NCBI GenBank assembly: GCA_947627235.1
Contig: CANQVG010000001.1
Location: 1-64,000 of the forward strand
DNA from: an uncultured Clostridia bacterium
GTDB lineage: Bacteria; Bacillota; Clostridia; Oscillospirales; Ruminococcaceae
Reading direction: 5' to 3'
Length of the DNA: 64,000 nucleotides
Below the pieces are notes generated by a model that saw nothing but the letters and a program-made list of their open reading frames with translations, did not search any database and was not told the origin of the DNA. Below, in pieces: positions 3,873 to 26,762 of the stretch (positions are counted from its first letter, which is position 1; each line of letters begins with the position of its first letter). The position numbers and the translations under genes are program-made.

Positions 3873-4460
3873 TCAATCCTCTGCGATTTCCTCTACAATT
3901 CCTCTCAGGCGTTCTACGCCCTCGTCGGTGACGGCGGAAAAAGGCACGATTGTAAGCTCGTCATAGTAAGGCAACTCGGATTTGAGCGCTTCAAGGCGGG
4001 TTTGCCTCTCGGACTTATTCAGCTTATCCGCCTTTGTCAGCACGACCACAAACGGCAGCTCGCACTCGACGAGATATTCGATCATCTGCAAGTCGTCCTT
4101 TGTAGGACTGTGTCGCATATCCACAAGCTGAAAGACGAGCGCGATGTCGCGCTCAGGGTCGGCGAGGTATCCGCCTATAAGCTCGTTCCAACGGTCCTTT
4201 TCCGACTTTGATACCTTAGCGTAGCCGTATCCGGGGAGGTCGGCGAAATAGAGGTTTTCGAGGGAATAAAAGTTTATTGTAGCGGTTTTGCCGGGCTGCG
4301 AGCTTACCCTCGCCAATGACCGCCTGCCGAACAGGCGGTTTATAAGCGAAGATTTCCCCACGTTTGAGCGACCGGAAAAGGCGATTTCCTTCCGCTCCGG
4401 CGGGGGTAGCTGCTTAAAAACGCCGTATGACGCCTTAAATTCTGCGGCGGCAAAGTTCAT
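3873..4460 (-). CDS. engB: Ribosome-biogenesis GTPase YsxC/EngB
   Basis: A 195-residue TRAFAC GTPase of the EngB (YihA/YsxC) family, needed for late assembly of the 50S subunit. The G motifs are in order: G1 GRSNVGKS (30-37), a switch region with PGKTATINFY, G3 DLPGYGYAK, G4 TKAD and a G5-like FSAV. Length and motif order are normal. The ATG shares one base with the stop of lon (TGATG), so it is translated by coupling with lon. The lon-engB pair is a classic conserved gene order in Firmicutes. Confidence 0.95.
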   Translation of the reverse strand: MNFAAAEFKASYGVFKQLPPPERKEIAFSGRSNVGKSSLINRLFGRRSLARVSSQPGKTATINFYSLENLYFADLPGYGYAKVSKSEKDRWNELIGGYLADPERDIALVFQLVDMRHSPTKDDLQMIEYLVECELPFVVVLTKADKLNKSERQTRLEALKSELPYYDELTIVPFSAVTDEGVERLRGIVEEIAED

Positions 4461-24412: not shown

Positions 24413-25009
24413 TTATGACCTGTCTTTTCCGCCGTAAAGGATTTTTTCTTTGAGGTCTACATGCTGATATCCGATATAAAAAGCCGCCCAGCAGGTGAGG
24501 ACAAAAAGAAGAGGCAAAATAGTGAGGAATATCATTCCGGCTGCAGAAAGCTCAGTCGCCGGAACGCTGACCGACATCGAGCGTCCGGCTTCGTCGAACT
24601 CGAGATGATTCGGAGCAAAGATATAAGTAACCGGCATAAAGTAGAAAGTAAGGGTTTTGTACCACGGGAAGAAGTCAAAGCCGAGGACTCCGAATTTTGA
24701 AAGATAAAGCAGTATGACGAAGATGTAGTTGATTCCCGCGGGAACCGCGCCGATGACAGCTCCGAAGTGCTTTGTGTTTTCACTGAGACCCTCGCGGTTG
24801 AATTTTGTGTTAGCTCTTGCTCCTGCCTTATTGCAGAAGTCGGCATATATGCAGAGAGAGGCGCCTATAGAGCAGAACCCGAACAGCCAGCACATAATTG
24901 TACCGAAATTCTGGTAACACATAGGGAAGAAGTAGTTTATTACAAAGCCGGCAAGTTCGCAGAGAATAAGAAAAAGCGCGGATTTTATCAGGAGTTTTGG
25001 TTTGTTCAT
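24413..25009 (-). CDS. Membrane protein of unknown function
   Basis: A 198-residue protein with about five hydrophobic segments (near 10-28, 35-56, 84-103, 122-135 and 157-180). The second carries several cysteines (MCYQNFGTIMCWLFGFCSIG). No domain is recognised. It lies 50 bp before cwlD on the same strand, with no terminator between, so it may be the first gene of the cwlD-radA transcript. A likely promoter is TTGTTT, 17 bp, TATAAT, with the -10 at 25046-25051 (minus). Confidence 0.65.
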   Translation of the reverse strand: MNKPKLLIKSALFLILCELAGFVINYFFPMCYQNFGTIMCWLFGFCSIGASLCIYADFCNKAGARANTKFNREGLSENTKHFGAVIGAVPAGINYIFVILLYLSKFGVLGFDFFPWYKTLTFYFMPVTYIFAPNHLEFDEAGRSMSVSVPATELSAAGMIFLTILPLLFVLTCWAAFYIGYQHVDLKEKILYGGKDRS

Positions 25010-25165
25010 TTTATCATTTCCTTTCGCAGTCTGCGGTTTTTAATAATTATACTCCAATGCTGCGAGAAAAACAAGAGGGTTTTGTACCTTTGCTTGCAGC
25101 TAAGACTTTGCGCTTTGAATTTTGCGTTGAAAAAGCGCTCAGACGCCGCACCTGCGCGCTTTGAC

Positions 25166-25251
25166 GGCGAAGCCCGCCCGCGCTTCGCGCGGGTCCCCGC
25201 ACGGCTCTGCCGTGCGGGGGCAGCCGTCCTGCGGACGGCTCGGGCTTCGCC
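25166..25251. repeat. Cloverleaf-like palindromic element (four-way junction)
   Basis: An 86-bp, very GC-rich element. An outer 11-bp stem (GGCGAAGCCCG at 25166-25176 with CGGGCTTCGCC at 25241-25251) encloses three perfect hairpins: 25177-25193 (7 bp, CCCGCGC-TTC-GCGCGGG), 25195-25219 (11 bp, CCCCGCACGGC-TCT-GCCGTGCGGGG as separate arms) and 25222-25240 (8 bp, AGCCGTCC-TGC-GGACGGCT as arms). Only three bases between stems are unpaired. It lies between the divergent starts of the membrane-protein gene and trkA, with no T tract. It could fold as RNA or extrude as DNA; it may be a mobile palindromic repeat or a protein-binding site. Confidence 0.8.
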
Positions 25252-25334
25252 TGCACCAAGAGCTGAATCGGGCGCGTTCCCAACATATGTTAAGGTGCGG
25301 GATTAAAGGCTCTCTGAAAATTTTCCTCAAACAG

Positions 25335-25400: not shown

Positions 25401-26762
25401 ATGAAGATTATAATTGCGGGATGCGGCAAAATCGGCGTCTCGGTGCTCGCAAGCCTCGCGCAGGAGGGTCATGACATCACAGCCATAGATAACGACAGCA
25501 GCGTCATTGCCGAGCTTACCAATGTTTACGACGTTATGGGCGTCTGCGGCAATGCTGTCGACTGCGATACGCTTATGGAAGCGGGAGCTGCCGATTGCGG
25601 GATGTTCGTCGCTATGACAGACTCCGATGAACTCAATATGCTGAGCTGTTTTCTTGCCAAAAAAATGGGTGCGCAAAACACCATAGCGCGTATTCGCAAC
25701 CCTGAGTACAACGATTCGAGCCTCGGATTTATGAGGCAGCATCTTGAGCTTTCTATGGCGATAAACCCGGAGCTCAGAGCCGCAAATGAGCTTTATAACA
25801 TCTTAAAATTCCCGTCGGCGCTTAAAATAGAAACGTTTTCGCAGCGAAATCTTGAAATGATTGAGTTTAGGCTCAGCGAGGAAAGCGACCTTGCCGGCAA
25901 GAGCATAATCGAGATCAGAAAGAAATATGACGCAAAGTTTCTCATCGGATGCGTGCAGCGCGGTGACGACGTATATATTCCCGGAGGCAACTTTATTCTT
26001 CGGGCGGGGGATAAAATAGGTCTTACAGCTTCGCAGAGCGAGATGCAAAAGCTTCTTAAAATGCTCAATTCACTCAGGCGTCAGGCAAAGAACATACTCA
26101 TTCTCGGCGGCAGCAAGACGGCTTATTATCTTGCAAAGATGTGTGAGGCGTCGGGAAGCACCGTGAAAATCATCGAACAGGATGAGGCGCGCTGCCTTGA
26201 GCTTACATCTTTGCTTCCGTCCGCCACAATAATCCACGGCAACGGAGCCGAGCAGGAACTGCTTATGGAGGAAGGTCTTGCAAGCTGCGATGCTTTTGTC
26301 GCGCTTACGGGTATGGACGAGGAGAATATACTGCTGTCGATTTTCGCGTCGATGCAGAACGTCCCTAAGACCGTTGTAAAGATAAATCGGGACGAGCTCG
26401 TCTGGCTTGCGCAGAAAATAGGCATCGAAAGCGTTGTTTCGCCGAAACAGATAACCTCGAATATTCTCGTTCAGTATGCACGTGCGCTCGAAAACTCATC
26501 AGGATCGGCAGCCGTAGAGACCTTATATAAACTCTTTGACGGCAAGGCTGAGGCTCTTGAGTTTATCGTAAAGACAGAATCGAAGCTCACGGGAGTTACG
26601 CTCAAGGATATAAGTCTCAAGCCGAATATCCTAATCGGGGGCATAATGAGAGGCAGAAAGACGATAATTCCATCCGGCGTTGATATGATTCTCCCGGGCG
26701 ACAGAGTTATAGTGATATCCTCCAACAACCGTCTCAACGACATATCCGACATTCTCAAATAA
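25401..26762 (+). CDS. trkA: Potassium uptake regulatory protein TrkA
   Basis: A 453-residue cytosolic protein with two RCK halves, each an NAD-binding Rossmann domain plus a TrkA-C domain. The first begins MKIIIAGCGKIGVSV, the second NILILGGSKTAYYLAK near 228; TrkA-C regions run about 135-215 and 370-450. It gates the TrkH channel according to nucleotide state. GGAGG lies 6 nt before the ATG at 25401. trkH follows after 19 bp, so they form an operon. Confidence 0.95.
   Translation: MKIIIAGCGKIGVSVLASLAQEGHDITAIDNDSSVIAELTNVYDVMGVCGNAVDCDTLMEAGAADCGMFVAMTDSDELNMLSCFLAKKMGAQNTIARIRNPEYNDSSLGFMRQHLELSMAINPELRAANELYNILKFPSALKIETFSQRNLEMIEFRLSEESDLAGKSIIEIRKKYDAKFLIGCVQRGDDVYIPGGNFILRAGDKIGLTASQSEMQKLLKMLNSLRRQAKNILILGGSKTAYYLAKMCEASGSTVKIIEQDEARCLELTSLLPSATIIHGNGAEQELLMEEGLASCDAFVALTGMDEENILLSIFASMQNVPKTVVKINRDELVWLAQKIGIESVVSPKQITSNILVQYARALENSSGSAAVETLYKLFDGKAEALEFIVKTESKLTGVTLKDISLKPNILIGGIMRGRKTIIPSGVDMILPGDRVIVISSNNRLNDISDILK

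Follow-up and report, generated by a model that had tools for sequence, protein, structure and literature searches.

A family of dispersed cloverleaf elements, probably maintained as a DNA fold, in a clade of uncultured Ruminococcaceae

INTRODUCTION

Several classes of small non-coding repeat are built on palindromes. REP sequences, with the REPINs and BIMEs composed of them, are described in the available parts of PMC2817692 and PMC3733652 as short, extragenic, palindromic, dispersed and species-specific, with complementary changes in their stems, and are moved by TnpA-REP (RAYT) or IS200/IS605-type enzymes. The available text of PMC7218506, citing Paquin 2000, describes GC-rich double-hairpin elements in the mitochondria of Allomyces and similar fungi, which are optional between related genomes and for which mobility has been argued although no enzyme is known. 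MITEs and other non-autonomous elements are small, non-coding and dispersed, with inverted-repeat ends. A further system is the integron attC site, a recombination site of variable sequence that is recognised as folded single-stranded DNA, and this recognition requires extrahelical bases in one hairpin.

Here we describe a cloverleaf in an uncultured Clostridia bacterium of the Ruminococcaceae that has features in common with each of these systems and departs from all of them. Like REPs, the cloverleaves are short, extragenic, palindromic, dispersed and species-specific, with complementary stem changes; unlike REPs, they join three hairpins to a closing stem, lack the GTAG/CGTC tag, occur here in a genome without a detectable Y1 transposase, and are constant in topology rather than in sequence. 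They share GC-richness, hairpins, optional occurrence and putative mobility with the mitochondrial elements, which however belong to fungal mitochondria, have two hairpins by name and, in the description available in PMC7218506, are given neither a loop rule nor a four-way junction. The cloverleaves resemble MITEs in size, dispersal and inverted-repeat ends, but no fixed terminal repeat or target duplication was found for them, nor a parent transposon among the families searched (PF01797, PF07282 and PF00078). If their shape has the role proposed below, they would resemble attC sites in acting as folded single strands of variable sequence, although their stems are perfect and they have three hairpins instead of one with extrahelical bases. 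A literature search restricted to papers outside subscription found no description of a three-hairpin closing-stem architecture.

RESULTS

A predicted four-way junction between divergent genes

The window analysed here is a 64-kb stretch (positions 1 to 64,000 of contig CANQVG010000001.1, assembly GCA_947627235.1). Reading and parsing of the sequence at 25166–25251 gave an 11-bp outer stem, 100% paired, that encloses three perfect hairpins within 86 bases; the features below carry no strand assignment. The left arm of the outer stem (25166–25176, GGCGAAGCCCG) contains the mini-hairpin sequence GCGAAGC and is followed by hairpin 1 (25177–25193), with a perfect 7-bp stem and the loop TTC (GAA on the opposite strand). 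One unpaired junction base (25194) leads to hairpin 2 (25195–25219), a perfect 11-bp stem with the loop TCT, and two more (25220–25221) separate it from hairpin 3 (25222–25240), a perfect 8-bp stem with the loop TGC (GCA on the opposite strand), after which the right arm (25241–25251, CGGGCTTCGCC) closes the structure. This parse agrees exactly with the original prediction in all stem lengths, loop sequences and the three unpaired bases. The covariance-model match described below extends into a left flank (25151–25165), with GCGC and then 5–6 nt before the stem, and a right flank (25252–25268), which reads GCACCAAGAGC in the window copy and CACCAAGGCGCAAA in several others; the two flanks pair weakly in many copies. 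The cloverleaf lies between an ORF on the minus strand (24413–25009) and trkA on the plus strand (25401–26762), i.e. between divergent genes, and no T run follows it on its 3′ side in the sequence read, both as originally noted.

The RNA fold of 25150–25270 has an energy of −81.3 kcal/mol (z −6.0), which was equalled by none of 200 dinucleotide shuffles. A strict topology detector, requiring perfect stems, three hairpins and a closing stem, found one cloverleaf in the window and none in 200 first-order Markov copies of it (12.8 Mb). In random sequence with the GC-rich dinucleotide make-up of the element itself, 16 cloverleaves arose in 1.29 Mb, or ∼0.001 per element length, so that composition contributes to the cloverleaf but is insufficient to explain it. 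The original view that chance did not produce this structure thus holds, with the qualification that its GC-rich composition helps.

Copies throughout the genome

A nucleotide search of the genome with the 86 bases listed 15 places. Of these, L011 is the opposite strand of the query, L012 a further piece of another listed copy and L015 a false match in coding sequence. Without them 12 distinct copies remain, recovered by similarity of sequence alone, and all of them fold with three hairpins. A covariance model made from five of the sequence-found copies gave 35 strand-hits in this genome, corresponding to 21 distinct places including the window element; even the weakest, on C14 (E 0.9), folds like the rest. 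At all 21 places the minimum-energy fold is a three-branch multiloop, with small extra flank hairpins in three. The topology detector recovered 18 perfect cores in 18 stretches around the model places: five model places fail it because of bulges or longer loops, and two cores with other outer stems (L222:4597 and L229:3461) were found by the detector and missed by the model.

The copies elsewhere adjoin unrelated genes and occur in both orientations. By a rough ORF method, the genes flanking the 21 places are codirectional at 13, convergent at four and divergent at four. An intergenic position was seen directly at five aligned sites, between conserved coding regions; at the other sites it is deduced from the rough ORF caller, with 11 of the 21 places overlapping a naive ORF extension. 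In 2.63 Mb of fetched loci, mostly picked for hits, the detector found 139 distinct three-hairpin cores, none with four or five hairpins, and eight two-hairpin objects, at least two of which are parts of three-hairpin copies. A different kind of element was seen in G125, where near-identical AT-rich two-hairpin junctions lie ∼300 bp apart (L311:7105 and 7407).

Distribution among genomes

At E 0.01 the model matched 13 of 41 genomes. Besides this one they comprise half of the congeners (12 of 24), and the 16 genomes from other families of the order gave no match. Among the genomes with a trkA match (carrier G006 and four non-carriers gave none), trkA identity is at least 76% in carriers and at most 67% in non-carriers, and the carriers therefore form one subclade of the genus. 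Across 295 genomes of the order, four passed a threshold of 1e-6. Three belong to this genus; the fourth, G308, is from a different genus of the family, and its copies share the topology but not the stems. A model derived from G308 was run on 148 genomes of the family and matched one, G097, which belongs to the same genus as G308, and left this genome unmatched at 1e-6; since the models do not cross subfamilies, these counts are lower bounds. Searched by its sequence models and patterns, the family thus turned up in a single subclade of the genus and in two genomes (G308 and G097) of another genus.

The exact outer-stem pattern was sought in 84,980 species genomes and gave 113 matches in 106 stretches. 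A three-hairpin fold below −55 kcal/mol is formed by 65 of the 113, all from records titled as uncultured Clostridia bacterium, isolates Lapin, under eight record prefixes; one more three-hairpin fold, in Prevotellaceae (L194), is weak at −33 kcal/mol. Twenty stretches of 20 kb, some on contigs already known to hold hits, contained eight three-hairpin cores (six in G018, two in G017), none with two, four or five hairpins, and no three-hairpin core in the seven stretches from non-carriers or the two from another family. In 40 further stretches there were six cores. G308 contributed five, from a contig picked because it contained a hit, and G097 one. A phage vehicle was discarded as a candidate, the outer-stem pattern occurring in two viral contigs, neither with a cloverleaf.

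Other repeats were observed in these searches. Planctomycetota OFTM220 contigs (L119, L122, L124, L133, L146, L156, L162, L197 and L212) carry a repeat of 95 nt that shares the 11-bp outer arms and lacks the three hairpins. In Bifidobacterium (L125:1353, L145:661 and L195:6086) a long single palindrome starting GGCGAAGCCCGGCATACATAGTG is conserved across several species. In G018, cloverleaf tandem pairs with a 285-bp period are present at L283:988–1360 and 3963–4330, with TTCTGACTTC-like repeats in the spacer. Mosaic arrays at L147:6500–7700, L217, L149, L183 and L213 combine cores and long shared flanks in various ways that are reminiscent of BIMEs.

Presence, absence and inversion at orthologous sites

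Upstream of trkA, 14 loci were compared (12 other trkA loci were left out, and L098, L102 and L103 are on the wrong side or cut). The core is present in this genome and in G003, G010 shows other palindromes instead of an intact core, and in all eight readable, more distant relatives of the carrier clade the core is absent and a short spacer stands instead. At C13:50812, cores with quite different hairpins occur in this genome, G003 and G010, and none in G022 and G016. The same distribution is seen at C20:6806, where the middle hairpin of the G003 copy has been lost. Paired changes distinguish the outer stems of this genome, G003 and G010 at C20:7967. In G010 the core at C11:19445 is inverted between unchanged flanks, and that intergenic region holds cores with yet another, third type of outer stem in G016 and G022. 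The original prediction had named the lack of a second copy and of conservation upstream of trkA as what would speak against it; further copies were found, as was the orthologous trkA copy in G003.

Orthologous outer stems vary in pairs (GGCGAACC/GGTTCG, GGCAAACC/GGTTTGCC and GGCGACC/GGTCGCC). Coding flanks at the aligned sites are roughly 80–90% identical among the three species, which indicates that the hairpins change faster than their neighbours. Neither a target-site duplication nor exact ends could be cleanly defined, the empty sites being too diverged to fix the ends. From the dispersal, the presence and absence among species and the two orientations we infer mobility or amplification, on the basis of comparison between species rather than of insertion polymorphism between strains. 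For the copies shared at the same place by the three nearest species, old insertions with fast sequence turnover also fit.

Stems covary and loops follow a rule

Of 189 model matches, 150 were aligned, and 87 copies remained after removal of opposite strands, overlaps and identical rows. All four Watson–Crick pairs occur at 21 of the 24 modelled hairpin pairs, and doubly changed cells number 732 in the hairpins and 36 in the outer stem; this alignment was fitted to the model and so leans toward it, and the sequence-found copies and orthologous sites are independent of it. In the hairpins, 1933 of 2005 cells are Watson–Crick, with 19 G.T, 21 A.C and 32 other, so that G.T is no commoner than A.C, unlike in RNA, and no G.U tolerance is seen. 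The outer stem has the opposite trend: 981 of 1009 cells are Watson–Crick, and G.T (15, eight of them at the end pair) exceeds A.C (2), with 11 other. The flank stem pairs poorly (386 of 590 cells Watson–Crick, 65%; 71 G.T, 38 A.C).

Among 414 loops in 138 distinct cores, 332 are of 3 nt and 71 of 4 nt. GNA or its complement TNC accounts for 283 of the 332 triloops, the window's hairpin 2 (TCT) being an exception to this rule, and the closing pair is C-G in 317, T-A in 11 and G-C in four; the copies are related, and these counts are therefore of non-independent events. In control triloops outside cores, taken by the same detector with stems of at least 6 bp, GNA/TNC makes up 3/32 in the window, 8/59 in non-carriers, 1/15 in another family and 13/69 in carriers. 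Where loops on the same arm differ by a single base, it is the middle base in 71 of 92 cases. Stems that covary around fixed loops had been anticipated; the covariation was borne out, and the loops vary at their middle base. Tetraloops have the form G(CNNG)C in 42 of 71.

These are loops of a DNA type. The available text of PMC4686876 describes GNA and GNNA DNA mini-hairpins as extraordinarily stable, GCGAAGC melting at 78°C, and that of PMC5815330 reports that a d(GCA) loop melts at 68.9°C with C-G closure against 48.9°C with G-C, and says that the motif resembles RNA GNRA loops. The ViennaRNA DNA parameters in the set used score all 64 triloops alike and give no energy ranking. The tetraloop d(gCNNGc), for its part, is said to have been described as a stable DNA tetraloop by Nakano in 2002, and G(CTTG)C is a stable RNA tetraloop too.

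The numbers of copies with 0, 1, 2 and 3 GNA loops are 9, 12, 7 and 7 of 35, against a binomial 5.9, 14.3, 11.6 and 3.1, and since the GNA loops of a copy are spread over its two strands, no single folding strand stands out. Pairs with identical arms carry the loop and the reverse-complement loop about equally often (238 and 233 pairs). Inversion of single hairpins was rejected as a cause, since after the copies were put in one orientation reverse-complement loops fell to 40 of 274, about the 14% expected from shuffling; the parity is accounted for by orientation of the whole element.

DISCUSSION

The constant topology, the paired changes in the stems, the DNA-type loops, the non-coding location, the clade limits, the presence and absence among species and the inversion at one locus fit a non-autonomous folded-DNA element. 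On balance we favour, with modest confidence, a clade-specific family of dispersed non-coding DNA elements that is conserved as a fold, a four-way junction of a closing stem and exactly three hairpins with DNA-stable caps, and that is probably non-autonomous, selfish and MITE-like. The DNA-type loops and the lack of wobble tolerance in the hairpins suggest that the shape is maintained at the level of DNA and not of RNA, and lend weight to the cruciform or DNA structure that had been among the original suggestions. The fold would be formed by DNA, either by extrusion of a cruciform or in a single strand, for example at the lagging strand; a putative trans-acting enzyme, or some process of the host, guided by shape more than by sequence, would then have copied or moved the elements, and any effect on neighbouring genes would be incidental.

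Passive palindromes are the alternative that survives best, although as a complete account we consider them rather unlikely. In this case quasi-palindrome template switching, a mutational process known in Escherichia coli (available text of PMC7202029), would copy arm onto arm and generate complementarity without function or dedicated mobility. Such copying accounts for the perfect arms, the lack of wobble tolerance and the faster divergence of stems than of flanks, but alone it fails on the dispersal to 21 places, the constant three hairpins and the clade restriction, and leaves unexplained why GNA/TNC loops are kept while their middle base changes; nor are flips of single-hairpin loops in excess. 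Quasi-palindrome correction probably helps to maintain the perfect arms, the spread, arm number and loops not being explained thereby, and it may act jointly with the conservation of a folded element that we favour.

A structured non-coding RNA family (leader, attenuator or sRNA) appears improbable. The very stable RNA fold, the strong covariation, the excess of G.T in the outer stem and the RNA-stable G(CTTG)C loops would all suit it, but the hairpins show no preference for wobble, the triloops are of DNA type, the copies lie in both orientations with flanking genes in all three arrangements, and the core is inverted at the orthologous site C11:19445. At the gathering score, Rfam gives only five tRNAs in the window and no family for the element, the best weak hit of the region reaching E 0.0073 and 17.2 bits against a threshold of 50. 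The more specific original suggestion of a folded RNA in the trkA leader was discarded, given the unrelated neighbours of other copies, their two orientations, the lack of wobble preference and the eight of eight readable distant relatives without the core upstream of trkA.

We regard REP-type elements moved by TnpA-REP or an IS200/IS605 enzyme as very unlikely, in spite of the dispersed, extragenic and palindromic character of the copies, their complementary stem changes and the tandem arrays in some relatives. The three hairpins on a closing stem are not REP architecture, and a GTAG, GTGG or CGTC tag lies within 10 nt of the foot in one of the 18 perfect cores of this genome, against 15% by chance. 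The Y1 transposase domain (Y1_Tnp, PF01797), the RAYT-type enzyme whose search had originally been advised, has no match in this genome (G000, 97.57% complete), nor in five of the 12 carrier congeners (G003, G006, G009, G020 and G022). It is present in eight of 31 genomes of the genus, the carriers G004, G010, G014, G015, G016, G017 and G018 and the non-carrier G005, the match in G010 being weak and partial (20.8 bits, listed over the cut-off), and is thus commoner among carriers (7/12) than among the other congeners tested; a RAYT may have been lost or missed. G004 has ten Y1_Tnp matches, several fragmentary or with stops. TnpB (PF07282) and reverse transcriptase (PF00078) also have no match in this genome; one and seven of the 31 genomes, respectively, exceed the cut-off, and their occurrence is unrelated to carrier status. 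Origins by TnpA-REP, IS200/IS605 or reverse transcriptase were accordingly rejected, and no transposase was recognised among the ORFs inspected by eye at the densest clusters. Of the original proposal of a mobile repeat mobilised by a TnpA-REP-like enzyme, the mobility or amplification is retained and the enzyme is not.

Transcription terminators or bidirectional insulators are hardly credible, for although the elements are GC-rich hairpins between genes, none of the 18 perfect cores of this genome has six or more T within 10 nt past either end, the gene upstream at C20:6806 has its own hairpin and T-rich run ahead of the element, and the window copy sits between divergent genes.

Returning to a family of elements conserved as a DNA fold, we tentatively raise the further possibility, which we hold with less confidence, of a class of mobile DNA that is defined by topology. 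An enzyme or replication process would recognise the folded junction by its three arms with GNA caps, with hardly any dependence on fixed bases, and the differing stem families would share this machinery across at least two genera.

Dispersed palindromes are common, but on our reading the members of this family share a DNA four-way junction and loops that follow the stability rules of DNA and not of RNA. Covariation is usually taken as proof of a functional RNA, and these elements are a warning that it can arise from DNA. About 140 natural variants are available for testing recognising enzymes. If our reading is true, the family would be natural evidence that DNA four-way junctions arise inside cells and are handled according to their shape.
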